Assembly: GCA_026988015.1 (NCBI GenBank)
Contig: JALSMA010000049.1
Span: 1 to 44,013, forward strand
Length of the DNA stretch: 44,013 nt
Source of the DNA: Desulfobulbaceae bacterium
GTDB taxonomy: Bacteria; Desulfobacterota; Desulfobulbia; Desulfobulbales; Desulfocapsaceae
Reading direction: 5' to 3'
A program made the position numbers and the translations under genes. The notes beneath the pieces are model-generated. The model saw only the letters and a list, made by a program, of their open reading frames with translations. It made no database searches and was not told the origin of the DNA. Positions 19,450-33,865 of this stretch are shown one piece after another (positions within the stretch are counted from its first letter, which is position 1; each line of letters starts with the position of its first letter).

Positions 19450-20200
19450 ATGTAATATGGCAGGCTTACCCAGGTCAACTCAAGAAGATAGGGATTCCGC
19501 CCCTACCCATTTGCCACAGGAGAACCATAAAATGAAACTCGCTGGTGTCCAGGCAAAGCAGAAAAAGAAATTCAAATCCACAACCGATAGCAAGCATAGT
19601 ATTCCTGGTTCTCCGAATCTATTGAGACGAATTTTTCATGTTTTACAACAAGACAGGGTTTGGGCTGGGGATATAACTTACATATGGACAACAGAAGACT
19701 GTCTTCACCTTACTGTTGTTATAGATTTGTATTCTCGTCGTGTTGTGGGCTGGTCCATCAATAAACGAATGACTAAGCAATTGGTCATTGATGCCATTCT
19801 CATGGCAATTTGGAGGAAAAAACCTACCCCAGGGCTGATATTTCATTCAGACAGAAGGAGTCAGTACTGCAGTAAAGATTTTCAACGATTGCTGAAAACT
19901 CATGGGATCAAATCCAGCATGAGTCGAGGTAAGCGAACGTGTGAGACTCTGAAGGATGATTGTTGGGACAATACAGTGGCTGAGAGATTTTCCGGAACGC
20001 TCAAATTAGAGTTGGTCTTCTGGGAAAAATACAAACCGCGCACGCAAGCAAAAGGAAGCATCAGCGAGTATATTGAAATGTTTTACAACAGCCAAAGACG
20101 TCATTCTTATCTGGGACATTTAACCCTTATGGAATTCGAGGTAGTCTTGGTTTTACAAAAAGTCGCTTAATAAAATGTCCACTTTTACTTGACCAGCTCA
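19450..20200 (+). mobile_element. Decayed, 5'-truncated IS3-family insertion sequence
   Basis: The right part of an IS3-type element: the transposase C-terminal two thirds (below) followed at 20176-20200 by a probable right end that starts TGTCCACTTTTACTTGACC and ends CA. Read from the other strand this end begins TG, as IS3 inverted repeats do. No matching left end, and no OrfA, is found in the 280 bp upstream, so the left half is missing. Target-site duplication could not be seen. Confidence 0.7.
19457..20170 (+). CDS. IS3-family transposase OrfB remnant (DDE integrase core), probably inactive
   Basis: A 237-aa open frame. From MKLAGVQAKQKKKFKS (~residue 26) it follows IS3-group OrfB, with the integrase core DRVWAGDITYI (first Asp), FHSDRRSQYC (second Asp) and NTVAERFSGTLKLE (Glu), ending at RRHSYLGHLTLMEFE. 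Signs of decay: HSDRGSQ has become HSDRRSQ; the usual SMSRKGNCWDN is split by about eight extra residues (SMSRGKRTCETLKDDCWDN); and the first ~25 codons are out of frame with the expected HTH segment, whose YG...GFR start can be traced in another frame around 19455-19505. No OrfA precedes it. It probably cannot transpose. Confidence 0.75.
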   Translation: MAGLPRSTQEDRDSAPTHLPQENHKMKLAGVQAKQKKKFKSTTDSKHSIPGSPNLLRRIFHVLQQDRVWAGDITYIWTTEDCLHLTVVIDLYSRRVVGWSINKRMTKQLVIDAILMAIWRKKPTPGLIFHSDRRSQYCSKDFQRLLKTHGIKSSMSRGKRTCETLKDDCWDNTVAERFSGTLKLELVFWEKYKPRTQAKGSISEYIEMFYNSQRRHSYLGHLTLMEFEVVLVLQKVA

Positions 20201-20323: not shown

Positions 20324-20734
20324 TTATTCCATGGAAAAATCACCGGGGCCAAAATCTGGCGGGTCCATAAAAAGCACTGCCTCCACAATCCCGGCCGGAA
20401 ACAGGGCATGCGAACTTTTCTGAAGTTCGCTACTCCCATGACCGCCAACGTGAACAAACTCAAACCCCTTATGCTCGATCTTACGTATCCGCGTTTGAAG
20501 AGCTTTTTCAAATGTTGCGACTGTGGCACTGATGGAAAAGCTCGTCCCAACCGTATTCTCCACCGTAAACCCCATATCTCTGAAAAAACCTTGAGCCTTC
20601 CTGACTGCCGCAGGAGTCGGAATAAAATCAGAAATATTTTGTGATGTCACAAGGGTATCGCTATCATTTTTTTTTCCGCCTTGTGAAGGGAGAATAACTT
20701 GGGCAGAAATGATTTCATTCTTTTCATCAACCAT
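20324..20734 (-). CDS. Free-standing protease-prodomain-like protein
   Basis: A 136-aa protein from the ATG at 20734, which has GAGAGGAAA upstream; an in-frame ATG 39 bases earlier lacks such a site. Residues ~40-90 look like the activation prodomain of subtilisin/kumamolisin proteases: AAVRKAQGFFRDMGF, then SFSISATVATFEKALQTRI. The same pattern occurs in the N-terminus of the S8 protease encoded two genes upstream (INSAVNKLELAGF, then SINICGSIDLFKKAFSTNI). There is no catalytic domain and no signal peptide. It ends with an acidic, Pro/Gly-rich tail (DPPDFGPGDF). It could be a protease inhibitor or chaperone acting in trans, or a substrate of the radical SAM enzyme. The function is inferred only. 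Confidence 0.68.
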   Translation of the reverse strand: MVDEKNEIISAQVILPSQGGKKNDSDTLVTSQNISDFIPTPAAVRKAQGFFRDMGFTVENTVGTSFSISATVATFEKALQTRIRKIEHKGFEFVHVGGHGSSELQKSSHALFPAGIVEAVLFMDPPDFGPGDFSME

Positions 20735-20915
20735 AACGTTTCCTCTCTCCTGAGAGCTGTGAGCAAAATGCACAGAAGGCCTCTAGGGGAATACCACAGC
20801 AAAGGCCAAAAACCACATCCAAAGAAACTGCTTTAGAAGAATGTCCACTATTTTCGCTGTCTCCTGTTCACCCCTCCATGTCTTCTAGACAGACGTTACG
20901 ACTGCAATAGTCGAA

Positions 20916-22772
20916 TCATGCACGTATGGGTTCTACCGGTATTGCCAGACTCAAAAAACGCTCGCCATCGGACACCATCAATCGATTTGCAACAAGGGAA
21001 TCCAGAAAACCAAGAACCTCCTTCTCACCAAACTGGACTTCCGGAAACTTTTCCCTGAGATGTTCTGTTAACGTTGTCCCTAAGTGCAATGAGCTGCAAT
21101 ATTCATATGCCTCCTTTTCCATACCTGAAAAAACGAATTCTCCCGCCCTTGCATCTGTTCGGCTATCAATGAGAATCAGAGAGTCATTCTCTTCTCTGAC
21201 AACGGAGGTAAGCGTCCCGAGCTCCGGTGTTTCCTGACAGGAATTCACGTAATCAACCACCTCGGCAGCTGCATCTCTCGGGTTTACTTCAGGTCTGTAA
21301 TCAAAATTAAAGCAGGAGGCAATCTTCGACAAACTTCTCTCATCAAAGGGATAGATGTATTTGTAGGCTTCAATCGGTCGTATATTTATCAGACCAAAGT
21401 GCACAGGATCATTAAAAAATGGACTAAAACGATCCATCCTGACAGGACCACAGATCGGCATGGGCCCTAGAAAACGAATGGCAGGAAGAAGGTCTCGGAT
21501 AAAATCGTAATCCTCTCTTGTTTCGCCGGGAAAGCCATATAAAAGATTCCAGTCCACAGCGACATCAAACTCTTTACACCATTTAAGTAATTGTACATTG
21601 ACAAGAGCAGAAGTGCCCTTTCGCATCAATTTCAACACATGATTGCTCAGACTTTCTATACCGGGCTGGATGCGATCAACACCAGCCTCATGCAGAAGCT
21701 TCACCTGATTACGAGTCAGGTTGGCCTTTACCTCATAAAAAAGGCTCACCTTCTTTTCCGCATCCGCAAGCTCAGGCAGTACGGTATGAAAATATTTCAT
21801 ATCGAGCATGTTATCAACAACCTCTACAAGATCGATCCCCCATCTCTCAACCAGGAAGGCCAGTTCTTCAAGGACCCGGTCCGCACTCTTACTCCGATAG
21901 GACAAGTTTTCACCATTGAGGCCACAGAAAGTACAATGGGATTTGGCTCCCCACCAACATCCGCGAGACGTTTCCAGGAGCAGGACCGGGATCACTGAGG
22001 CCATGACTGTGCTTTTCCTGAGGTCATGGAAGTAATCGCTATAATCAGGCACAGGAAGCGTATCCATCTGCTCTATGGGTTCAGGAGATCCAGTATAAAC
22101 GGATTCACCATTATCCCTGTAGACAATACCTTTGATCTGCTTCCTTGAGTTTTCTCCTTTACTCCCTGCCAGTACTTGTTCGGCAAGAAGTGTGAAACTC
22201 TTTTCAGATTGCCCGGAGCAGACATAATCAACAAAATGGAATTTCCGGTGGAGCTCCTGCCCCATTTCAGCCTCCCAGTTTGCACCACCAAACACAATAT
22301 AAAGATGAGGATACTTTTCTGTTATGCGTCTAGCCAAAGCAAGAGATGCAATATTCTGCTCAAAGGTGGAGGTAAAACCAACAAGAGAGTAGTCGTTCCA
22401 ATCAACCGCTTCAAGGCAGTGCTCAAGGAAATATGGAACCATGGATCGTATTTCCAAGATACGCCTTATTGAAGAGGAATCAAGACGCCAGGTGTCCTGT
22501 AAAACGTGCCGGATATAGTTTCTATCCGATTCAATCTGTTCTCCGTACAAACTTGGAGAAAATGTCCAGTCCCCTGCAAAAGCAGTGTAAGCCAACTCCG
22601 ATGCTATCCAGCAATATTCCTCCCAGCCTATAAATTCTGCCAGAGAGAAAGTGAAGTAGCGCACATCACAAACAATATTCTGTTCTGCCAGGCATGCCTT
22701 TAAAATACTGATGCCCAGAGCCGGGCGATCCAACGCTCCATAGGGCATGCTCAACAACAGTACTTTTCCCAT
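20916..22772 (-). CDS. B12-binding radical SAM enzyme, RiPP C-methyltransferase type
   Basis: A 618-aa cytoplasmic enzyme of the 'ribosomal peptide maturation radical SAM protein 1' group, which methylates unactivated carbons of peptides. I start at the ATG at 22772 because AAGGTGG precedes it and MGKVLLLSMPYG is the normal N-terminus. Residues ~1-250 include a cobalamin-binding-type Rossmann region (VGFTSTFEQN, IVFGGANWE). The radical SAM core follows, with the cluster Cys spaced CX7CX2C in GCWWGAKSHCTFCGLNG (C272, C280, C283), the pattern of this family rather than the usual CX3CX2C. The downstream YRSKSADRVLEEL, VDNMLDMKYF, QPGIESLS and YGFPGE are typical. It lies between the S8 protease (115 bp upstream) and the prodomain gene on one strand. 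Confidence 0.88.
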   Translation of the reverse strand: MGKVLLLSMPYGALDRPALGISILKACLAEQNIVCDVRYFTFSLAEFIGWEEYCWIASELAYTAFAGDWTFSPSLYGEQIESDRNYIRHVLQDTWRLDSSSIRRILEIRSMVPYFLEHCLEAVDWNDYSLVGFTSTFEQNIASLALARRITEKYPHLYIVFGGANWEAEMGQELHRKFHFVDYVCSGQSEKSFTLLAEQVLAGSKGENSRKQIKGIVYRDNGESVYTGSPEPIEQMDTLPVPDYSDYFHDLRKSTVMASVIPVLLLETSRGCWWGAKSHCTFCGLNGENLSYRSKSADRVLEELAFLVERWGIDLVEVVDNMLDMKYFHTVLPELADAEKKVSLFYEVKANLTRNQVKLLHEAGVDRIQPGIESLSNHVLKLMRKGTSALVNVQLLKWCKEFDVAVDWNLLYGFPGETREDYDFIRDLLPAIRFLGPMPICGPVRMDRFSPFFNDPVHFGLINIRPIEAYKYIYPFDERSLSKIASCFNFDYRPEVNPRDAAAEVVDYVNSCQETPELGTLTSVVREENDSLILIDSRTDARAGEFVFSGMEKEAYEYCSSLHLGTTLTEHLREKFPEVQFGEKEVLGFLDSLVANRLMVSDGERFLSLAIPVEPIRA

Positions 22773-22887
22773 TGTAGCCACCTTAACATCAAAGAACGTC
22801 CATGGGGAATACATCCGTATGCAGCAATGCGACATACGGATGTATTTCTTGAGCGGAAAGTCTATTTATTACTAGGAAATCTACGAT

Positions 22888-24609
22888 CTACGTATCCAAA
22901 TCCCCCAGGTCTAATTCAGAGCCAAGCACCATATCTTCCAAAGTTTCAATATCCTCCTGCGTCAACATCGAACTTTGGGAATCCTGTTCTTCCTGAGCCG
23001 TTACATCCTCACTGGCCTGATCTCTTGGAACAATCGGCCGTATAGGCTCAATAGGGGTGGGACGACGAATAGGTTGTATCGGCCGCCGAATGGGCTCTAT
23101 GGGGCGGCGTATCGGCCCTATGGGCCTGATTGGGTCAATTGGACGACGAATAACCTGTAGACACCTGATCTTGGCAACCAATACAGCCTTATGGGCATCC
23201 ACCAATCCATTACCGGTGGCTGTGTCCGGCCCGACAACAGCAGCATTACCTCCGGTACTGGGACTGCAGTTTCCAGCCGTGACATCACGGGCACTCTTCA
23301 TAAGCACATCTCGAACCTGCCTGGGATTGAGACGGCTACAGGCCTGTTTTACCAATGCTGCCGCACCGGCGAGCTGTGGTGCCGCTGCAGATGTTCCGCT
23401 GAAGGCTGCCCAGCCATCGTCAGGGGCAGTTTCATCACCAGGTGGATGCGCCCCTCCTGCCTTACCCGTATCAATCTGATCTCCAGGCTCCAGAGGCAGC
23501 ATGATATACGAGGCACCGGGGCTCATACCGACAAGTCCGGACAAATCTGGAACACGGCGGTTACTATAAATATTGCTCATAAAACCTGACGAATAGTCTG
23601 AAGCCTGCAGAGAGCCGTCATTTTCCATGTAAACGCCGCCTGCGGAAATAACATCAGGATGCTGTCCTGGAAATCCCCAGTGACCATTTCCTGCTGAGAA
23701 AATGACAACAATACCTGAACTCACGGCAGCGGCAATTGCTGCAGCCAAAGCCTGATTTGCTGCACTGAGTGGTCCGTTTGCGATACTACTTCCCCAACTA
23801 CAGGTGATGATATCAGGTTCCAACCCCACTGCGGTATTAAAGGCACCCAGTGAGTTTACAAAACTCATCTTCACCGGAAGAAATTGTACATCCGGTGCAA
23901 CAGCAAAAATATTTGCAGATTCTCCGGTTCCATGGCCGGATTCGTCTCTGTTCGCATTTGCTGCGCTTGGACCAAGTACCACCGGTGATGCCCGATATCC
24001 ACGACCTACAAAGTAAGGATGCCGATACCAACCGCTGTCAACCATTGCGACCTTGACCCCTTTTCCTGTGATGCCTGACCGGTGCGCCCTGTCAGCGTTA
24101 CATCCCAACGATACATCACCCGGCATGCACAGGTGCCAATATGCTTTGGTGGGCGCAAACATGCTCGGCCCCATAAAATAACGTGGCTCTTCAATGGCAA
24201 CCCCTTCAAGTACATCTTCAAAAGGAGTACCTTTGGTATCAATGAGACCTGGAATGTCGGTTTCAGGAACTTCCCAGAATGTCGCCTTGCCCTCCTGAGC
24301 CCCAGGCTTTATGACGGGACGTTCCTCTGGAACGATATTCGTGCTGAAGGCCTTCTTAAACAAATCAATGCTGCCGCAGATATTTATTGACACTTGAGAA
24401 ACTTGCAGTATTTCAAAACCAGCCAGCTCCAATTTATTCACAGCAGAATTGATAACCTGATCATCTGAGAAAAAATTTGCCACAGTATCAGCATTAATTG
24501 CTTCCCCGGCATCAAACATTGATACTCCACCAAGGGATAGTGGTGAGGCGTTAGCAAAAAGCTTATCAGGGATTTTCACATCTTTCTTTTTCTTTTTAGC
24601 AGTAGCCAT
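22888..24609 (-). CDS. Subtilisin-like (S8) protease with prodomain and Pro/Arg/Ile repeat tail
   Basis: A 573-aa serine protease without a signal peptide; it begins with a lysine-rich stretch, so it is probably cytoplasmic. GGAGG lies seven bases before the ATG. Residues ~40-95 are a prodomain (FEILQVSQVSINICGS, FKKAFSTNI). The catalytic domain (~165-470) has Asp191 in VAMVDSG, His226 in DESGHGTGE, the oxyanion Asn308 in FSAGNGH and Ser407 in SGTSAAAP, so it should be active. Residues 488-528 are about six copies of a heptad-like unit (R)RPIxPI. The last ~45 residues are acidic. The tail is not part of the S8 fold. It heads a likely operon with the B12 radical SAM enzyme and the free prodomain, which suggests peptide processing; the tail may be the modified or released product. 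Confidence 0.88.
   Translation of the reverse strand: MATAKKKKKDVKIPDKLFANASPLSLGGVSMFDAGEAINADTVANFFSDDQVINSAVNKLELAGFEILQVSQVSINICGSIDLFKKAFSTNIVPEERPVIKPGAQEGKATFWEVPETDIPGLIDTKGTPFEDVLEGVAIEEPRYFMGPSMFAPTKAYWHLCMPGDVSLGCNADRAHRSGITGKGVKVAMVDSGWYRHPYFVGRGYRASPVVLGPSAANANRDESGHGTGESANIFAVAPDVQFLPVKMSFVNSLGAFNTAVGLEPDIITCSWGSSIANGPLSAANQALAAAIAAAVSSGIVVIFSAGNGHWGFPGQHPDVISAGGVYMENDGSLQASDYSSGFMSNIYSNRRVPDLSGLVGMSPGASYIMLPLEPGDQIDTGKAGGAHPPGDETAPDDGWAAFSGTSAAAPQLAGAAALVKQACSRLNPRQVRDVLMKSARDVTAGNCSPSTGGNAAVVGPDTATGNGLVDAHKAVLVAKIRCLQVIRRPIDPIRPIGPIRRPIEPIRRPIQPIRRPTPIEPIRPIVPRDQASEDVTAQEEQDSQSSMLTQEDIETLEDMVLGSELDLGDLDT
23026..23148 (-). repeat. Coding tandem repeat for the (R)RPIxPI units
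   Basis: The stretch encodes residues 488-528 of the S8 protease as RRPIDPI, RPIGPI, RRPIEPI, RRPIQPI, RRPTPIEPI and RPIVP. Units are 18-27 bases and imperfect at DNA level (varied Pro, Arg and Ile codons), so the amino-acid pattern is kept rather than being a recent DNA slip. Confidence 0.8.
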
Positions 24610-24849
24610 TGTATTTCCTCCTCATTTGTTATTATACGGCGCCATATGTTTCCGTGGATGCAGCTTGTGCATAGGCACTTGAAGCATAAGCACGCCAGCC
24701 TCGACAGCACTCTCAAATGTCATGTAATCTTACAATCTTACAGAGCAAATACAGTTTAAAATAAATTTCTGGATTCTGAATTTCTTTGTGCTTCCTGATG
24801 AACTTATTTGCTCCCCATTTTGTTGTTCTCCTGAAAAGAATAAGGGCGC

Positions 24850-24951
24850 TCAACGATTTGACCCGACAATATCCCTTTCGGTGTTAGATTTAACTCTGAG
24901 TGAAGTCTCTCTTAAAGACGACGACTGATCCTGCAACTCAGCTTCAGCCAT
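24850..24951 (-). CDS. Possible 33-aa peptide gene (candidate RiPP precursor)
   Basis: A 33-codon ORF that begins MAEAELQDQSSSLRETSL and ends in VGSNR. The ATG at 24951 is preceded by AGGAGAACAACT, one of the best ribosome sites in this part of the window, and a hairpin at 24967-24984 sits just upstream. It lies 240 bp before the S8 protease on the same strand, where a precursor peptide would be expected for the radical SAM enzyme. The peptide is polar with many Ser, Arg and Glu and has no Cys or leader motif that I recognise. Against it: the reading frame is open upstream and overlaps the tail of a decayed amidase-like frame, so the ORF could be chance. Confidence 0.35.
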   Translation of the reverse strand: MAEAELQDQSSSLRETSLRVKSNTERDIVGSNR

Positions 24952-25367: not shown

Positions 25368-26870
25368 TCAGTGAAAAAGGTCGAACTTCCTGGCCCGATT
25401 GGCGAGAGACTGGAGGACAGCACCGGGAGAGATGCCGACCCGACGAGAAATAATTTTTTCAGCTTTATGAAAAATATCCAGGGCAGTTGCCGGGAACCCT
25501 GCCTCTATGTAATGCGCCATAAGGCAGGCATAAACACCTTCATGCAGAGGGTCAGAATAACGTGCCTGCTCAAGGAAAGAAAGCACAACATCATCCCCTG
25601 CATCTTTGAGAGAGGCAAGTCGAAGCACCCCTTCGATAAAAAGGGCACGAAGATAATCCCGAAAGGGGTCAATCCATGCTGTCTCATCTTGAGGGAGAAA
25701 GTCGTTAACATACAAGCTCAGTATAAGTTGCAATGATTGTACACTCTCCATATTACGATTCTTCTCCATCATTCGAGCAAACTCCAGAGCATCTACCCTG
25801 CAGACAGACCGGATCAGTGAAACCCGCTGATATTTCACCGCCAGCCAATTTGAAGGAAGTGAGCAGTAGTCACCACCTATCCTCCGCAATCTTGACAGGG
25901 CCATCTTGAGATTATTCAGGGCCCGGTCTCCATCACTGTCTGGCCAAAGGAGCATGGAGAGTTTTTCCATCGACACTTTGGTCCCGCCAAGGGCAATAAT
26001 CGCCTTGAGCAGCTCTTTTGAACGGCGCCCTTTCCATAATCTGTCATATATTGGCTGGCCGTTCATTCTCAAGCAAAAATTGCCAAAAGTCTGAATATCA
26101 ACAACAGGGGACCTGATCTGAGACAAGGGAACAACGGATCCCAGCCCCCTTTTTCTCTCTTGAACACCCGACACACGACAAAAAACCTGTACACCCCCGG
26201 TAATTTCGCCATCGATTCCCATAAGAGGGGTCGTGTTAATTTTCACTAATATCTGCTTCTCCTGGGCAGTGGTCATAAAGAGAAAGCGATTAGCAATCGG
26301 TATCCCCTGTTCGATACTCTTGGCAAGGATACACTCATGATCCCTGCCACCATTAAACACTCTCTGACAGTCCCGGCCAATAACCTCTTCCCTCTGCCAG
26401 CCGGTAAGCTTTTCCGCAGCATGATTAAATGAGATTATCCGCCTCTTCTTATTTACACTAAACACCCCATCGTTGATGGAGTTCAAAACACACTCGGCAA
26501 CAGCACTACTCTGCTCATTTTTCAAGGCTGGTAGAGTTTCTTTGGTAAGGGTGAAAAGCCAACAAAAATCTTCAGTAAAGGAAATCCCATAACTATACTG
26601 ACCCTGATTATTACTGGCCCACCGAACTTTACCTGATGTAGCCACAGTACTCCGGCCAGTCAAGGCCTGCGGCAATCTCATGCGAACAGAAGTTCCCCTG
26701 GAAATATTCGCCTCTGTTGTTATTTCGGCACCACGATAATGCAAATTAACACTCATGGCCTTATATTCCCGACCGGAGTCATTGGGCATAAATAAATAAA
26801 TTGGCAGTTGCAGTGGTATCCGACAAATAGAGCGACGATTATGTCCCGCTTTGGAGAAAAGGCTTCTCAT
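25368..26870 (-). CDS. PilZ-PAS-winged-helix/BTAD (SARP-like) transcriptional regulator
   Basis: A 500-aa soluble regulator. A PilZ-like domain (~10-115) starts with RRSICRIPL; its second motif is degenerate (VNLHYRGAEI, lacking the Ser of DxSxxG), so c-di-GMP binding is doubtful. A PAS domain (~125-235) contains SINDGVFSVNKKRRIISFNH and TGWQREEVIG. An OmpR-type winged helix (~258-345) has LWKGRRSKELLKAII and LSMLLWPDSDGDRALNNLK, followed by a BTAD helical-repeat domain to the end. Such proteins activate transcription, often of accessory or secondary-metabolite clusters. It lies upstream of the protease/radical SAM cluster on the same strand and faces away from the glycyl-radical operon, so it could control either. 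The start has only a weak AGAAG site. Confidence 0.82.
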   Translation of the reverse strand: MRSLFSKAGHNRRSICRIPLQLPIYLFMPNDSGREYKAMSVNLHYRGAEITTEANISRGTSVRMRLPQALTGRSTVATSGKVRWASNNQGQYSYGISFTEDFCWLFTLTKETLPALKNEQSSAVAECVLNSINDGVFSVNKKRRIISFNHAAEKLTGWQREEVIGRDCQRVFNGGRDHECILAKSIEQGIPIANRFLFMTTAQEKQILVKINTTPLMGIDGEITGGVQVFCRVSGVQERKRGLGSVVPLSQIRSPVVDIQTFGNFCLRMNGQPIYDRLWKGRRSKELLKAIIALGGTKVSMEKLSMLLWPDSDGDRALNNLKMALSRLRRIGGDYCSLPSNWLAVKYQRVSLIRSVCRVDALEFARMMEKNRNMESVQSLQLILSLYVNDFLPQDETAWIDPFRDYLRALFIEGVLRLASLKDAGDDVVLSFLEQARYSDPLHEGVYACLMAHYIEAGFPATALDIFHKAEKIISRRVGISPGAVLQSLANRARKFDLFH

Positions 26871-27590: not shown

Positions 27591-30002
27591 GTGACTGAAT
27601 ATCTCAGCAGTACCAATTTCCCCTGTTTGACAACAGCCGAAGCTGACAACCTTGCAGCCAATCTGACACATATTCTTGAAAACGATTGTGGTAATGGCAT
27701 GTACGCTTTATTGGCAGGATACCAAAGAATTCTTGCTGACAATAAACGTCGTAGCCTATGGCCGGATGTTCATAAAAAGCTGGAGCTTCTGTTCAAGTGC
27801 GGCAGCTATCAAGTTGTTGATGGGCCGATGATCGGGATCCCTGTTTCAATAAAAGATAGTGACTATTTTAGGGATGCTGTCAGCAAGGTAGGTCGTGAGC
27901 GATCCCTGGTCGCAGGAATCGAATGGATGGCCACTGCCTGGAACATGACCTTTGCAGACACCGGTCTTTGGATGGGAAAGACGTTTGAACCGGTTTCCAT
28001 AGAGATCGTGGCAGAAAAAACAGGACATAATGCTTTGATAATAAAGCAATATAGTGAAGCAAGCACCCGGATAGGACGTAATTTTTTCCGTGAACCTGCC
28101 GACCCTGATATCATCCAGAGCCTCGGTCTCCCTGTACTTACTTCTTTATGGAACCTGCAGCCTCGTCCTGCGCCGGGCCAGACGAAAATATTTGATGCTG
28201 AGCTGCTGGAGAAAAATCTGAGACGAGAAAAGAATATCCCTTACAGCATGACTGGTGGGATATTCCTGGCAAACCATGGAAAATCTGTTGTTTCGGAAAT
28301 GAACTCCAAGGAAGTATATCAGCTGAATTATCGCTGGCCACTCTTAAATCCCGTCTTCCCCATGACTCGACTTGTCGATGAATTGGTTCAGATTGAAGAA
28401 GGTACCTATCTTGGGCAACTGGTATTTGCCACCAGGCATTACTGCATTGGAGACCTGTCTCTGCCTTTTGTGAAAAAGAGCTCCATTTCACTTGGGGAAG
28501 CGTACACTGCAGACAGTAATATGGATTTTGGGTACCAGAACAACGGATATTTTTTAATGATGTCTCCTGAGAGAGCAGAACAGATCTTCGCAGATACGGC
28601 TTTTCCTCAATTACGCCCCCGAGTCGGTGAAAATGGTTATGTGGAGTTAGGCTACGACAAACTTTTTACCGGAGATACTCACACGCCACCAGCCAGAGCC
28701 ACATGGCAGCAGCACGATGTAGAGGACTGGGTGGATGGCTGGCAGGAAAACAGTGAACTGCGGGAAAAGTTTACGACCTTTATTTTAGAAGATTCACCCA
28801 GGAGTTCAGATACCGAAGATGTCCGAGAAATGCGCCGGAGTAATGAGTCTATTTTACAGATGCTCAAACGAATAAGTCACAACATTTCAGAGCAGACCAG
28901 GAAAGATGACCATCTGTATCATTTTGAGAATTTGCATCGTCTATTCAGGTGCGGCATTGCCCCTGAGGTGAAGAACGGCCTCTTTCAGGGACATGGTAGC
29001 AGGGGCTATAACTGCAGAATTGACGGTTCCGAAAAGCGGGACTGGTACGGTCAGGCAGATGTAGCCCGTGGCTGGGATTATTATCACGGGGCGAATCTGA
29101 ATCTGCATCTTGGATTTGGTGATTCTCTTCATTCAGACAGCGCTGAAAAACCTGATGGCAGTCACCTGTTTCCAGCTGTGCTTGCTGAAGGATTAGTGGA
29201 TGATGAGGAAAAAGGACCCAATATCCTGAACATGATCTGGCACACTATCGGCAAGTACATTTTCCCTTGGGCTGGTAAGTCCTATGAAACAATAAACGGG
29301 AGAAAACTCAGTATGTTGCTGGACGAGAGCTGTGATCTTGCCGCACGGTATTCAGAACGGGTGAAGGAGTTAAAGCTCCACATGGCATCCCGACCACATT
29401 ACGATCTGGTGAAAAAGGCTGCAAAGGGATATTGGCAGCATCCTGGTCTCTATGCCGATCACCTCCGGAATGGTTCCTGGGACAATGGAATGTCAGAAGA
29501 AGACAAGGCCTACTGGGAAAAAGAGGCGCGAGAACATTGGCTTGACGGATCTAATATCCAGGATAGCCGTATCCTCATGGCAGATCCTTTGTTTCGGGTA
29601 ATTGATATTAACTACCGCACCCCGGATCCTGCGTTGCAGGATATTTCCGAGGCTGGCCCTTCACCCTTTGCCAGGCAGGGTTATACCTTCTTGGGAGTTT
29701 CCGGGCGCGATTCTATCCTGCCAATAAACAACGGTCTGGAGAAGAAGAAAGTGGTTTTTCAGTTTCATTACCGTTACCCTATGATTGGGGGTCCTGCACC
29801 CATTGGTTTGTGTCTTGATGAACTGGTGGAGATTGCGGATGGTCTTTTTCTTGGGCAGCTTATCTATTCTACAGCTTTAGGTGTTGCCTATCACTCGTCT
29901 GTTGATCCGGCTCAGTATAAATACCAGCTTTTTGGGTATTTTCTGCTCCTTGACGATGCCTGGGAGCATCATCGTAAGGCCATTGATATTGATACCGTAT
30001 AG
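27591..30002 (+). CDS. Unrecognised 803-aa protein with internal duplication, first gene of glycyl-radical operon
   Basis: I do not recognise a family. The GTG start at 27591 has GGAACAC upstream; the first in-frame ATG is 36 codons later. No signal peptide or clear membrane helix is visible, so it is probably cytoplasmic. A unit of ~40 residues occurs twice: at ~241-281 (YQLNYRWPLLNPVFPMTRLV then DELVQIEEGTYLGQLVFATR) and at ~719-760 (FQFHYRYPMIGGPAPIGLCL then DELVEIADGLFLGQLIYST), each followed by a similar GYFLMM/GYFLLL strand. The protein may thus be two related halves with an aromatic-rich middle (NGLFQGHGSRGYN, WYGQADVARGWDYYHG). It lies 52 bp before the glycyl-radical enzyme and is probably cotranscribed, so it may act on the same substrate. 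Confidence 0.75.
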   Translation: MTEYLSSTNFPCLTTAEADNLAANLTHILENDCGNGMYALLAGYQRILADNKRRSLWPDVHKKLELLFKCGSYQVVDGPMIGIPVSIKDSDYFRDAVSKVGRERSLVAGIEWMATAWNMTFADTGLWMGKTFEPVSIEIVAEKTGHNALIIKQYSEASTRIGRNFFREPADPDIIQSLGLPVLTSLWNLQPRPAPGQTKIFDAELLEKNLRREKNIPYSMTGGIFLANHGKSVVSEMNSKEVYQLNYRWPLLNPVFPMTRLVDELVQIEEGTYLGQLVFATRHYCIGDLSLPFVKKSSISLGEAYTADSNMDFGYQNNGYFLMMSPERAEQIFADTAFPQLRPRVGENGYVELGYDKLFTGDTHTPPARATWQQHDVEDWVDGWQENSELREKFTTFILEDSPRSSDTEDVREMRRSNESILQMLKRISHNISEQTRKDDHLYHFENLHRLFRCGIAPEVKNGLFQGHGSRGYNCRIDGSEKRDWYGQADVARGWDYYHGANLNLHLGFGDSLHSDSAEKPDGSHLFPAVLAEGLVDDEEKGPNILNMIWHTIGKYIFPWAGKSYETINGRKLSMLLDESCDLAARYSERVKELKLHMASRPHYDLVKKAAKGYWQHPGLYADHLRNGSWDNGMSEEDKAYWEKEAREHWLDGSNIQDSRILMADPLFRVIDINYRTPDPALQDISEAGPSPFARQGYTFLGVSGRDSILPINNGLEKKKVVFQFHYRYPMIGGPAPIGLCLDELVEIADGLFLGQLIYSTALGVAYHSSVDPAQYKYQLFGYFLLLDDAWEHHRKAIDIDTV

Positions 30003-30054
30003 TATGAAAGAACCGGAAAAGAAATTGTGTATTGATTGAGGTATAAAGTATACC

Positions 30055-32529
30055 ATGACAGCTGTAACACTTGATGAAATCGGCCTGAAAGAGTTCACGC
30101 TGGAGAGTTTACCACGTCTTAAAGAACTTCGTACCCAGTATTTTTCCCGCCAACCTGAGATCTGTATTGAACGGGCTCGCTATGTAACACAATATCTTCG
30201 CGAGCACGATGATTCCGCGCATTCTCCGGAGCTCAGGCAGGCGAAAAAGGTCGAATATTTTCTTCGTCACAAGAGTGCCCGGTTTCATGACCGCAATCTT
30301 ATTGCTGGCAATACCACAAGTAAGGCTCTGGGAGCACCGCTGTTCCCAGAGTTTTTTGCCCTGACTCTGTGGCCTGAGCTTGAAACCGTAAGTGACAGAA
30401 AAAAAAACCCGCAGAAACTCACAGCCAGCGAAGCAAGTGAGCTCAATCTGGAAATTTTCCCCTTCTGGATGGATAAAAATGTCCTTGAAGTCACCAGAAG
30501 TCAGTTTGATAACCCTGAATGCTTACAACTTTTTGAAAAGCTGGTTTTTTTTATTGCAGCAAAGGCAGGTTGCATCTCTCATGCTGTTCCAACCTATACC
30601 TCTATGCTTCAGTATGGGTTAAGCGGCCTGATCAAAAAAGCAGCAGAGTACGAAGAAGAATTGGCCGGAGTAACAGATGCAGATGCAGAGCAAAAAGCAG
30701 ATTTTTTTCGGGCTGTTCAGATATCCCTTCAAGGAATCATAGTCCATGCCGAGCATCTCGCCGAAGAGGCGAAAGAGCTTGCCACGGTCGCTGATGATCC
30801 GAAAGATGCAGCAGAATTTACAGCAATGGCTGCTGTCTGCCGCAGCGTACCGGTGGGACCGGCCACCACTTTCCGAGAAGCAGTGAATGCGATCTGGATA
30901 TGTCAGGTGGGTATTCACGCCGAAAATATCAATATGGCCATGAGTCCCGGCAGGCTGGATCAGATTCTTTACCCCTACTATAAACAAGATATCGCAGAAG
31001 GACGTCTGGACATAGGCAGAGCCATGGAGCTTGTGGGATGTCTGTGGCTGAAAATTGCTGATAATGTCACCATGGTTCCCGAGGCTTCTGAAGAGCTGTT
31101 TGGCGGTGCTGGAACAGTACCTGCCATAACTCTGGGAGGAGTGGGTAAAGACGGCGAGGACGCAGTAAATGACCTCACCTATATCATGTTGCGTGCCACA
31201 GAGTTACTTGGCATTCGAGATCCCAATGTGAACGCCAGGTATGATTACGAAAAAAATTCACAAGACTATTGTCGCCGGGTCTCTGAAGTTATTCTTAATA
31301 CAAAGTCTGTACCAGCTTTTTTCAATGATAAAGCAAACATCACAGCTCTTTGCGGTCAGGGAGAGCGTCTTGAGCATGCTCGAGACTATGCAGTCATCGG
31401 GTGTGTGGAACTGGCAAGCAGCGGCCGTGATTACCCAGCTTCAAGTTCCATTATGATGAATCTTGCCGCAGCTCTTGAAATGGCTCTTTTCGGCGGAAAA
31501 CGACCGATAACTGGCGAGGAACAGATCGGACCAGCTACGCCGGATCCATCAGAATTAAGAAGCTTCGAGGAATTCTGGAAGATTTTCAAGATCCAGTTAG
31601 ACTGGCTCATTGAACAGGCCATCACCCTCAATGAATACATGGGTGCTGTGCATCAGGAAATGATGCCATCACCACTGTTGTCAGCTCTTTTCATTGGCCC
31701 GATGGACAAGGGAGTAGATCTGATTCGGGGAGGGGCACTCTACAATTCTTCAGGAGCTACGCATATTGCTTTTGCTGATGTCGTTGATTCCCTGAGCGCC
31801 ATTGAACAGACTGTTTTTATAGAAAAAAAGTATACTTTCAATGATGTGCTGGAGCAGGTTCGAGGTAACTTCAGTGGCCAGAAGGGCGTGAAAATGCGAC
31901 TTTATCTGAAGAACCATACCCCTAAGTATGGAACCGAGGCCGTGATCGCCCGTAAAAATGCCCACAATATGATACAACACCTCTTTGAGAAGTACCAATC
32001 CCACACCAATTATCGGGGCGGCCCATACCACCCTTCGTACTGGACCATGACTAATCATGCCGGTCTTGGTGGTATCAGCGGTGCCTTACCTCATGGGCGC
32101 AAAGCTGGCGAAGTCTTTTCCAGCGGCATTACCCCTGTTTCAGGAGCAGCTCCGGAACTAACCGCATGCCTGAATGCAGTGGCGGAACTTGGTGGTGAGT
32201 GCGTGCCCGGTTGCTGGGCCTTGAATATAAAATACACCCCTGAGAGTGATGTAGCAATTATGGCTGAACGTTTTGCCCAGACCATAGAAGCCTATTTCCG
32301 GGCAGGGGGGCAGCAGGTGCAGTTTAATATCATGACCTATGAAATGCTCCTTGATGCCAAAAAACATCCGGAAAAGTACCCGGAACTAATGGTTCGCGTA
32401 TCTGGCTATTCAGCATATTTCAAAGATCTTAATGAAATGATGAAGGACGAGCTTATTACCCGTACCCAGTATGGGTTGGATGATGGGCGGGTCGTTCCCC
32501 TTCCACCTGAAGCAAAAAGGAGACACTGA
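30055..32529 (+). CDS. Glycyl-radical enzyme (PFL-like, Cys-Val-Glu type), substrate unknown
   Basis: An 824-aa cytoplasmic, oxygen-sensitive enzyme of the pyruvate formate-lyase-like superfamily. The active-site thiyl Cys450 is in AVIGCVELAS; the single Cys with Glu452 two residues on is the pattern of dehydratases, lyases and decarboxylases (CutC, glycerol dehydratase, HPAD types), not of true PFL, which has two adjacent Cys. The glycyl-radical loop is RVSGYSAYF with Gly784, 40 residues from the end. The N-terminal LIAGNTTSKALGAPLFPEFF and LNLEIFPFWMDKNV fit an uncharacterised branch. The downstream gene overlaps its stop as TGATG, and the matching activase follows, so the operon is self-contained. 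I cannot assign the substrate. Confidence 0.9.
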   Translation: MTAVTLDEIGLKEFTLESLPRLKELRTQYFSRQPEICIERARYVTQYLREHDDSAHSPELRQAKKVEYFLRHKSARFHDRNLIAGNTTSKALGAPLFPEFFALTLWPELETVSDRKKNPQKLTASEASELNLEIFPFWMDKNVLEVTRSQFDNPECLQLFEKLVFFIAAKAGCISHAVPTYTSMLQYGLSGLIKKAAEYEEELAGVTDADAEQKADFFRAVQISLQGIIVHAEHLAEEAKELATVADDPKDAAEFTAMAAVCRSVPVGPATTFREAVNAIWICQVGIHAENINMAMSPGRLDQILYPYYKQDIAEGRLDIGRAMELVGCLWLKIADNVTMVPEASEELFGGAGTVPAITLGGVGKDGEDAVNDLTYIMLRATELLGIRDPNVNARYDYEKNSQDYCRRVSEVILNTKSVPAFFNDKANITALCGQGERLEHARDYAVIGCVELASSGRDYPASSSIMMNLAAALEMALFGGKRPITGEEQIGPATPDPSELRSFEEFWKIFKIQLDWLIEQAITLNEYMGAVHQEMMPSPLLSALFIGPMDKGVDLIRGGALYNSSGATHIAFADVVDSLSAIEQTVFIEKKYTFNDVLEQVRGNFSGQKGVKMRLYLKNHTPKYGTEAVIARKNAHNMIQHLFEKYQSHTNYRGGPYHPSYWTMTNHAGLGGISGALPHGRKAGEVFSSGITPVSGAAPELTACLNAVAELGGECVPGCWALNIKYTPESDVAIMAERFAQTIEAYFRAGGQQVQFNIMTYEMLLDAKKHPEKYPELMVRVSGYSAYFKDLNEMMKDELITRTQYGLDDGRVVPLPPEAKRRH

Positions 32530-32972
32530 TGTTTGAAGGTATTGGTCAAGAGCTTACTGAGAAGCTCCTGGCAGATTTCAGAAAGTGTTTTGACTCTGAA
32601 CTGGCAGAGGAATTTTTACAGACCTTGCTGACATTAATGAAGGTCGCTTTTATAGTGAACCATGACTATCGACGCAATATAGATACCTTCAATGGGCGGT
32701 ATCAATTCTGCAGCGAGGATGGTGAAGTAACCATTGGAGTTATTTTTGGGAACGGTCGTATGAAGGTGGTGGAGGATAGCATTGATGCTCCGCATATCAC
32801 CGTAACTTTTCGTGACGGGCGAACCTTGCTGAATTTTATTATTTCACCACGCCAAGATATTCTTGGTTCCATGCTCAAACATGATGTCAGAACCGAAGGC
32901 AATCTGAATTATCTGTATAAATTCGGTTTTATGGCAAAACAACTGCAGTTGATGATGCCGCAAGTCGGATGA
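32529..32972 (+). CDS. SCP2-like small protein of the glycyl-radical operon
   Basis: A 147-aa protein whose start overlaps the stop of the glycyl-radical enzyme and whose stop overlaps the activase start (ATGA), so translation is coupled on both sides. The pattern HITVTFRDGRTLLNFI followed by SPRQDILGSML and NLNYLYKFGFMAKQLQL resembles the SCP2 sterol-carrier fold, where a beta sheet and a C-terminal helix form a hydrophobic pocket. The N-terminal ~45 residues are helical. No signal peptide or catalytic motif is visible. It may hold or deliver a hydrophobic substrate to the enzyme; this is inference from fold and position. Confidence 0.65.
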   Translation: MFEGIGQELTEKLLADFRKCFDSELAEEFLQTLLTLMKVAFIVNHDYRRNIDTFNGRYQFCSEDGEVTIGVIFGNGRMKVVEDSIDAPHITVTFRDGRTLLNFIISPRQDILGSMLKHDVRTEGNLNYLYKFGFMAKQLQLMMPQVG

Positions 32973-33865
32973 GAGGGCTGATCGGTAATATCAGCCGCTA
33001 TGCTCTCCATGACGGACCTGGAATCAGAACAACGGTTTTTTTGAAAGGATGTCCCCTGCACTGTCCATGGTGCCATAACCCTGAGCTCATCTCTCATGAA
33101 CCGGAGGTTGCCTTTTATGCAGAACGCTGTATCTCCTGTGGTGATTGCCAGGCAGTGTGTCCGGAGGATGCCATATTGATGCATGGTGAAAAACGTATCG
33201 ATCACACCCGCTGCACCGGATGTGGCTTGTGCACAAAGAGTTGTCCGGCCATAGCCCTTGTCATGATCGGCAGGGAGTATGAACTTGAAGAACTTGTCGA
33301 GGTACTACTGCGTGATCGCCACTTTTTTGAGGTGTCAGGGGGCGGGGTGACTCTGTCAGGTGGTGAACCGACTCAGCAGCTTGAATTTACAGCTTCTTTA
33401 CTGGAGAGATTGCACAATGAAGGAATCCATACCACCATTGAAAGCAACGGCATTTTCCCCCGCGAGACGTTTGCCTCCACTTGTCTTGATCATTTGGACC
33501 TGATTCTTTTTGATCTGAAATGTATTGACTCCGCCTGGCACCAGGAGGTGGTCGGGAGGGGCAATGAACGTATTCTTGAGAACCTGTCCTGTCTACTGAA
33601 AACGAGGGCGCGGGATGTCATTGTCAGGATACCAGTTATCCCTGGCCATACAGCAACACCAGAGAATATTGGTCAGATTGCTGATCATCTTCGTAAGCTT
33701 AACGTGTGTCGTTATTCCCTGTTACCTTATCATCCTTTTGGATGTTCAAAGGCGGCAGCCCTTGGCAAGATTCAGAAGAATTCACTTCCGGAACAGGCAA
33801 TGGAGCAGGATAAACTGGGGCAATGGCAGGAATTCTTCCACGGCATTGAAAGAGTGCTCCCATAG
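32969..33865 (+). CDS. Glycyl-radical enzyme activase (radical SAM)
   Basis: Generates the glycyl radical on the upstream enzyme. The 298-aa protein has the radical SAM cluster Cys in GCPLHCPWC (C28, C32, C35), followed by an inserted two-cluster ferredoxin domain (CISCGDCQAVCPEDA and CTGCGLCTKSCPAIA), the hallmark of activases for non-PFL members. Next come the SAM-binding GGGVTLSGGEPTQQ and the later strand IPVIPGHTATPENI. The start overlaps the stop of the SCP2-like gene by four bases. All motifs needed for activity are present. Confidence 0.93.
   Translation: MRGLIGNISRYALHDGPGIRTTVFLKGCPLHCPWCHNPELISHEPEVAFYAERCISCGDCQAVCPEDAILMHGEKRIDHTRCTGCGLCTKSCPAIALVMIGREYELEELVEVLLRDRHFFEVSGGGVTLSGGEPTQQLEFTASLLERLHNEGIHTTIESNGIFPRETFASTCLDHLDLILFDLKCIDSAWHQEVVGRGNERILENLSCLLKTRARDVIVRIPVIPGHTATPENIGQIADHLRKLNVCRYSLLPYHPFGCSKAAALGKIQKNSLPEQAMEQDKLGQWQEFFHGIERVLP

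Follow-up and report, generated by a model that had tools for sequence, protein, structure and literature searches.

A candidate protease-fused repeat precursor beside a putative radical SAM C-methyltransferase in a Desulfobulbaceae bacterium

The contig JALSMA010000049.1 of a Desulfobulbaceae bacterium (assembly GCA_026988015.1; 44,013 nucleotides (nt), hereafter the window) carries three genes in a row on the minus strand, encoding an S8 (subtilisin-like) protease, a putative B12-type radical S-adenosylmethionine (SAM) C-methyltransferase with a CX7CX2C motif and a free prodomain of the protease type. The protease ends in a tandem Pro-Ile-x repeat, and relatives of the radical SAM enzyme that form one clade with it are encoded near tandem-repeat proteins. 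We propose, at a probability of roughly 0.55, that this is a repeat-modifying system akin to those of ribosomally synthesised and post-translationally modified peptides (RiPPs), in which the precursor would be fused to a protease and the radical SAM enzyme would C-methylate the repeats. The original prediction for this locus had placed the three genes in line at 20324-24951 and read them as an unusual peptide-modification cluster. Open reading frame (ORF) calls and family matches bear out the arrangement, although the end at 24951 overshoots the protease start at 24609; the cluster looks indeed unusual, and the trio recurs in Kribbella. The intergenic gaps are 115 and 181 nt, and the trio is likely one operon.

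The protease gene (22888-24609, minus strand, as are all features of the trio) encodes 573 amino acids (AA), matches PF00082 (5.8e-24) and has a homologue in Kribbella. A prodomain of about residues 1-145 (24175-24609), whose boundary was set by alignment to free prodomains and which is matched by a hidden Markov model (HMM), precedes the S8 catalytic domain (Pfam stretch 182-445; 23275-24066). The motifs VDSG (D191), GHGT (H226), SGTSAAAP (S407) and SAGN are present, which we take to be the catalytic triad and the oxyanion hole, in agreement with the intact triad claimed before. Beyond the catalytic domain, the protein continues into QVIRRPIDPIRPIGPIRRPIEPIRRPIQPIRRPTPIEPIRPIVPRD, a tandem Pro-Ile-x tail (residues 485-530; 23020-23157) which had been overlooked in the original prediction and is proposed here as the core or substrate of the radical SAM enzyme. 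An acidic C-terminal segment (LTQEDIETLEDM...LDLGD; 22891-23019), identified by alignment with Kribbella, follows the repeats and may possibly be a recognition element.

For the tail, a Pro-Ile score was used, i.e. the count of P-I/V/M per 42 residues, which was devised post hoc when the tail had already been seen. The window tail scores 11 in 42 residues, a value reached by 0 of 10000 shuffles of the tail (top shuffle, 10). Among 577 ORFs of at least 100 AA in the loci collected, seven score at least 6, and every one of them lies in a locus of the radical SAM clade. Since the first score was post hoc, a second tandem-repeat score independent of Pro-Ile was added, which is noisy in GC-rich loci; on this score the tail reaches 19. 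At lag 7, 16 identical residue pairs were found, of which 4 use the same codon, where 5.0 are expected by chance. Because synonymous codons are thus randomised, the repeat appears to be ancient and maintained as a peptide sequence. The Pro-Ile tail is also missing from seven further S8 genes, six of them in Kribbella and one in the window's genome.

A scan of genome contigs for the set gave two loci, one in Kribbella sp. VKM Ac-2527 (L033) and one in a Bacteroidales metagenome-assembled genome (MAG; L034). Kribbella has the same trio in identical order, the successive ORFs as listed overlapping by 4 nt, and for this reason the trio is considered a real unit. The Kribbella protease (L033:8160-9977) shares 63% identity with the window protease, carries a P-I/V-x tail of its own and ends in a similarly acidic stretch (LTDDDVAALEQI...DDLDL). 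The radical SAM enzymes share 47% identity and the free prodomains 35% (L033:11851-12186 in Kribbella), the latter with PPDFGPG in common. A further Kribbella gene, L033:12183-12869, overlaps the free prodomain gene; its product of 228 AA has no Pfam or NCBIfam match, displays by eye an HxD...H pattern like that of Fe/2-oxoglutarate oxygenases and is possibly a second modifying enzyme. The Bacteroidales MAG encodes a relative of the radical SAM enzyme (39% identity), a trypsin-like protein, which matches Nal1 and S7 weakly and has a PREPMM-repeat tail, and a free 81-AA copy of the N-terminal domain of this protein (58% identity over 81 AA). One gene away from this repeat-tailed peptidase lies an ATP-grasp gene; a gene of 245 AA ahead of it has no family match and was taken as a partial ATP-grasp, judged by its position.

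The radical SAM enzyme of the window is encoded at 20916-22772 (ORF 20916-22835), the start at 22772 being more probable according to a Shine-Dalgarno sequence seen by eye. It matches TIGR03975 with 644.3 bits over model positions 1-606 of 606 (curated cut-off 281.85) and PF04055 with 2e-16, and CWWGAKSHCTFC (21924-21959) fits the CX7CX2C pattern reported before. The B12-binding Pfam match (E = 0.0025, 18.1 bits) is below the family cut-off; CobS is encoded in the host genome. The common TIGR03975 matches of the window's class (L008-L012, L015, L016, L019, L022, L030, L031) score about 366-400 bits, and CX7CX2C is missing in 11 of the 11 examined; judged by these features, they seem to be a different subfamily still above the cut-off.

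Further relatives were collected with profiles of the radical SAM enzyme. At E ≤ 1e-130, matches were obtained in 8 of the 395 genomes from the phylum of the window and in 4 of the 396 from that of Kribbella, with the window's own genome and Kribbella counted in; with an earlier profile at E ≤ 1e-100, 4 of 395 genomes of the Bacteroidales' phylum were detected, that MAG included. The surroundings of all new matches were taken, and the loci are not a random draw. A tree was computed from 35 radical SAM proteins, seven of which had been labelled 'repeat' beforehand, Niallia being unlabelled in that test. The seven and Niallia form one clade (support 98/98), within which the enzymes of the window and Kribbella are sisters (96/90). 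When the repeat label is compared to the group with NHLP or Nif11 precursors, one change is needed on the tree, and 0 of 500 shuffles were as low (22 rows belong to neither group). A tandem-repeat protein is encoded within 4.5 kb of the radical SAM gene in all eight clade loci, and the Pro-Ile-independent score likewise finds a repeat ORF in each of them (16 to 36 matches of 40). For 14 other loci, six have no ORF scoring at least 14 and in three the high-scoring ORFs are Ala/Val-rich NHLP precursors.

More distant relatives of the enzyme adjoin NHLP precursors (G109, TIGR03793 with 102 bits; G098 and G099 by sequence likeness) or a Nif11 precursor (G995, 44.5 bits), and in G1165 the neighbour is an NHLP-like peptide that matches weakly, under the cut-off. 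Thus, of the co-occurrence by which the original prediction was to be judged, the recurrence of the trio elsewhere was found, whereas distant relatives of the enzyme stand beside another precursor type. No nameable precursor was seen near the radical SAM gene in G973, G1008, G1045, G1479, G1298, G1468, G821 and G128, several of which were viewed roughly, as were the surroundings in L090 and L091; the G1008 contig ends after 5.7 kb. In relatives of the same genus (L004, L065, L066), NHLP precursors with repetitive Ala/Val-rich cores lie beside a TIGR03975 enzyme.

In four members of the clade (G746, G836, G920, G974), the repeats are located at the end of a separate protein of 295-348 AA, which adjoins the radical SAM gene or is one gene away from it. 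The units are of the PRITV, PPVRPPI or RPPAYF type, and no peptidase domain was matched by Pfam in the three of these four proteins scanned. The same gene run contains a different, tail-less S8 protease with 26% identity to that of the window over about 290-330 AA. Since another protein than the protease carries the repeats in these four cases, an association of the repeat with the radical SAM enzyme can be separated from one with the protease. A second protein near the G920 cluster (L082:14089-16314) contains a short PIMPIKPIMPVKPI stretch. On the Niallia plasmid, a GMSPGMG-repeat protein is encoded 3.6 kb upstream of the radical SAM gene with one gene in between, and no S8 protease is annotated in this stretch. 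With their 295-348 AA, the repeat proteins of G746, G836, G920 and G974 resemble structural proteins more than small peptides, and in the window and in Kribbella the tail is internal and followed by a similar acidic end. Both would suit a protein maturation in which the methylated tail is never released but stays on the protease as a permanent, polyproline-like stalk, which the radical SAM enzyme rigidifies or protects; however, the separate S8 protease next to the stand-alone repeat protein in four loci suggests cleavage, and a permanent stalk appears unlikely.

According to the proposed release of a methylated repeat, the radical SAM enzyme would, with SAM and methylcobalamin, C-methylate many residues of the tail in the cytoplasm, most likely Ile (Val or Met in the relatives) or Pro. 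The acidic end common to the window and Kribbella may dock the enzyme. Two prodomains would hold the protease latent, its own and the free one acting in trans, and the PPDF end of the free prodomain would occupy the active-site cleft. Upon activation, the methylated repeats would presumably be cut off by the protease itself; in the four relatives with repeats on a separate protein, the different S8 protease is encoded alongside. In line with a cytoplasmic modification, none of eight repeat carriers has a strongly hydrophobic N-terminus, as judged by crude hydropathy and no signal-peptide predictor. In PMC11285071, PoyC is described with a Cx7Cx2C motif and methylates Ile and Val, PoyB methylates Val and Met, and a bottromycin radical SAM enzyme methylates Pro. 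The tails of the window and Kribbella are rich in Ile, Val and Pro, and since these targets match, C-methylation of the repeats is suggested.

The free prodomain (136 AA; 20324-20734) is proposed as a trans-acting partner of the protease, i.e. an inhibitor or chaperone. Its ORF spans 20324-20773, and the start at 20734 is likelier by eye. Pro-kuma_activ (PF09286) gave E = 1.9e-4 and 22.1 bits and did not reach the cut-off of 23.5. An HMM of nine other prodomains, the window protease's own included, matched the protein with 50.1 bits (E = 1.7e-14), the top score among 999 shuffles being 14.3 bits. The protein is a homologue of S8 prodomains, and the gene for a stand-alone prodomain was thus recognised correctly before. 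PPDFGPG near its C-terminus (20342-20362) aligns with EEPRYFMGP, which in the protease links the prodomain to the catalytic domain, and a position at this junction would be expected of a product-like inhibitor tail. Foldseek with a model of the free prodomain listed pro-TPP1, pro-kumamolisin, ProN-Tk-SP, pro-subtilisin E and the subtilisin BPN' prosegment among the 26 best matches, which is suggestive only, as the model is poor and all matches have E ≥ 0.048. Stand-alone propeptide-like inhibitors of subtilisin, I9 type, exist; the free prodomain resembles them as a homologue adjoining the protease and differs from them in its Pro-kumamolisin-like sequence, inhibition being putative. Of 257 genomes of the window's class, four contain the free prodomain at E ≤ 0.01, own genome counted.

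Nonomuraea, Calothrix and G023 also have S8 and free prodomain genes as pairs, and the stretches examined there contain no TIGR03975 gene. In G023, a radical SAM gene is 1.1 kb away from the pair (26.6% over 177 AA to the window enzyme); TIGR03975-like genes are found elsewhere in the Nonomuraea and G023 genomes and, on a Mesorhizobium plasmid, 33 kb from the S8 gene. Within the eight clade loci, the prodomain HMM matches in the window and Kribbella only, besides two chance-level matches in the Bacteroidales locus. Because the pairs lack a TIGR03975 neighbour and six of the eight clade loci a free prodomain, the free prodomain goes with the protease type. This bears on the original prediction that a prodomain, free or attached, replaces a classical leader or recognition element; on this reading, the free prodomain would be the precursor, and its core would lie at the C-terminal PPDFGPG. 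In Kribbella as in the window, the gene of the free prodomain does follow the radical SAM gene directly and its product has a conserved PPDFGPG, but similar ends (EPPDFHAL, EPSEFLP) occur on free prodomains next to S8 proteases without a TIGR03975 gene. Together with the six clade loci, this makes a role as leader highly improbable, and this part of the original prediction is not supported.

The repeat tail was present on window-type S8 proteases in two of two cases with the radical SAM gene beside and in none of six without it nearby (L040-L044, L068); among these six, the gene of Paenibacillus is distributed over two frames, and the protein of G023 is extended by a long stretch without repeats. 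For plasmids, 5 of 13 S8 records were examined. In Rhizobium and Mesorhizobium, a Ser-Glu-Ala repeat peptide (88 and 83 AA) is encoded separately in the vicinity of the S8 gene, and the loci share an AMP-binding-like protein with 50% mutual identity, for one of which PF00501 gave E = 7e-4, under the cut-off. These peptides weaken the above count of tails against absent modifiers and tie the S8 type closer to repeat peptides; it seems to serve other, separate repeat-peptide loci, too. A Fisher test (S8 alone, 0.036; pooled, 0.00055), from which four tail-less S8 of another subfamily were excluded, was set aside, since the six relatives had been counted as 'no modifier', yet those of Rhizobium and Mesorhizobium are near a repeat peptide. 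Genes with annotations of the purine/deazapurine type are found beside the repeat peptide, the AMP-binding-like protein and the S8 gene (Rhizobium, L043:4977-8275; Mesorhizobium, L044:2873-8071), and the plasmid loci look like a peptide-scaffold pathway of another kind.

Such separate peptides, as well as the NHLP/Nif11 precursors adjoining the more distant TIGR03975 enzymes, would also be in line with an ordinary processing protease, the tail of which is a linker, the radical SAM substrate being an unseen small peptide or encoded elsewhere. However, six small minus-strand ORFs of the window have no leader-type match (not every small ORF was scanned), and the repeats follow the radical SAM clade irrespective of the carrier protein; an ordinary processing protease is therefore rated as rather improbable. 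As the original prediction had stated, no NHLP or Nif11 leader was found, with zero matches among nine window proteins and these six ORFs, the remaining small ORFs being inspected by eye.

Several findings weigh against a protease-fused precursor modified by the radical SAM enzyme. The counts are low, and the loci are no random sample. The repeat units vary by locus (PIx, PRI, PPVR, RPPAYF, PREPMM, GMSPGMG), a tail is missing in four of the six S8 proteases that accompany clade enzymes, and proline-rich tails can be linkers. In the repeats of Bacteroidales (20/21) and Niallia (21/34), codon agreement is above chance, which therefore points to recent duplication. If all other rows of the tree, Niallia included, are scored as non-repeat, two changes are needed. 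On the Pro-Ile-independent score, frames in GC-rich loci reach 14-22; the five high-scoring non-clade loci of 69-75% GC give 15 to 22, mostly in non-gene frames, and a serine hydrolase gene of Streptomyces globosus, 2.6 kb from a radical SAM gene outside the clade, has a Pro/Ala-rich repeat scoring 21. The tail-less S8 proteases of Rhizobium and Mesorhizobium may, judging from their neighbours, not be free of modifiers. AlphaFold models of the protease and the free prodomain, from two sequences each, were poor, with a mean pLDDT (predicted local distance difference test) of 30.5 and 47.5, respectively.

Right beside the trio, a transposase (rve integrase core) is encoded at 19457-20170 on the plus strand. 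Among 41 relatives' genomes, the window's own is the one that contains the window-type S8 at E ≤ 1e-20, and among 245 genomes from the order of Kribbella, a match at E ≤ 1e-60 came from Kribbella alone. The transposase and the absence of this S8 from the 40 other relatives' genomes fit a horizontal arrival. Upstream of the trio lies a gene for a regulator with PilZ, PAS and BTAD domains (25368-26870, minus strand), followed at 27591-33865 (plus strand) by a glycyl radical enzyme (PFL-like), its activating enzyme and a neighbour of 803 AA that has no Pfam or NCBIfam match. PADLOC gave no more than a weak subtilase match, and no relatives were found in the viral contigs searched.

A peptidase with a repeat tail next to an ATP-grasp gene, as in the Bacteroidales MAG, was encountered once more. 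In Burkholderia stagnalis (L100:2942-4510), an M43 metallopeptidase (PF05572, 8.3e-16) directly precedes an ATP-grasp peptide maturase related to the Bacteroidales ATP-grasp, and its tail of ~200 AA opens with Thr/Asp/His repeats. Five M43 relatives (five of 10 records besides the query; 47-60% identity, 310-361 AA) lack such a tail, and the stretches of 3.5 kb examined contain no ATP-grasp gene; the Bacteroidales protein has a Nal1-type relative of 326 AA, which is also tail-less. For the ATP-grasp, 6 of 60 records were examined (L095-L100), with a gene-level repeat in L100 alone; two more (L105, L106) of 92 records contained neither an M43 homologue nor a tandem repeat that exceeds frame noise (L106, 74% GC). 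In Croceicoccus (L095), a separate precursor-like peptide was noticed by eye. The evidence is thin, comprising one M43 and one Nal1-type case. It is tentatively considered, as a possibility short of a probable one, that peptidase-fused precursors are general in RiPPs, i.e. that latent cytoplasmic S8, Nal1/trypsin-like or M43 peptidases with a C-terminal repeat core are modified by B12 radical SAM or ATP-grasp enzymes and release the core themselves.

By passing the cut-off, the window enzyme groups with the TIGR03975 (rSAM_ocin_1) C-methyltransferases. In borosins, the precursor is fused to its own modifying enzyme, the core peptide being the tail of the enzyme; the core candidate of the window is likewise an enzyme tail, with a protease as fusion partner where borosins have a methyltransferase. 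The CX7CX2C motif is shared with PoyC, and an Ile/Val/Met-rich target candidate with PoyB and PoyC, of the polytheonamide (proteusin) pathway (PMC11285071). Unlike with the proteusin enzymes PoyB and PoyC, no NHLP or Nif11 leader was found in the window, and the candidate target is a tandem repeat ending a protease. The tandem-repeat RiPP TvgA/TvgB is similar in that, according to PMC9062424, a radical SAM enzyme acts on short tandem-repeat units at a beta-branched residue; TvgB forms cyclopropylglycine instead of the methyl groups proposed here, and the repeat is on a precursor peptide instead of a protease. S8 proteases are known from clusters for modified peptides, e.g. the cytoplasmic ElxP, and are in the portions of PMC10885120 consulted not described as carrying their own substrate. 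Graspetides differ in that no ATP-grasp maturase, by which they are defined, was found among ten window proteins scanned. According to PMC8939145, the peptidases that accompany branches 7 and 8 of the ATP-grasp enzymes belong to unrelated families, and a precursor was not found there; the Bacteroidales and Burkholderia loci are likewise peptidase loci with ATP-grasp, and their peptidases are repeat-tailed. No protease-fused precursor for a radical SAM enzyme was found in a literature search with most subscription papers outside its reach, and the review passages on RiPP leader proteases that were available mention none.

Genome mining for RiPPs mostly seeks small precursor genes, and a core in the tail of a protease would escape it. 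If the proposal is true, the locus represents a self-releasing precursor and a methyltransferase clade for repeated hydrophobic or proline-containing units. If peptidase-fused precursors are general, the 'missing' precursors of ATP-grasp branches 7 and 8 (PMC8939145) would be the peptidase tails. This would give a testable answer to the question why some peptide-maturase loci hold peptidases without a precursor.

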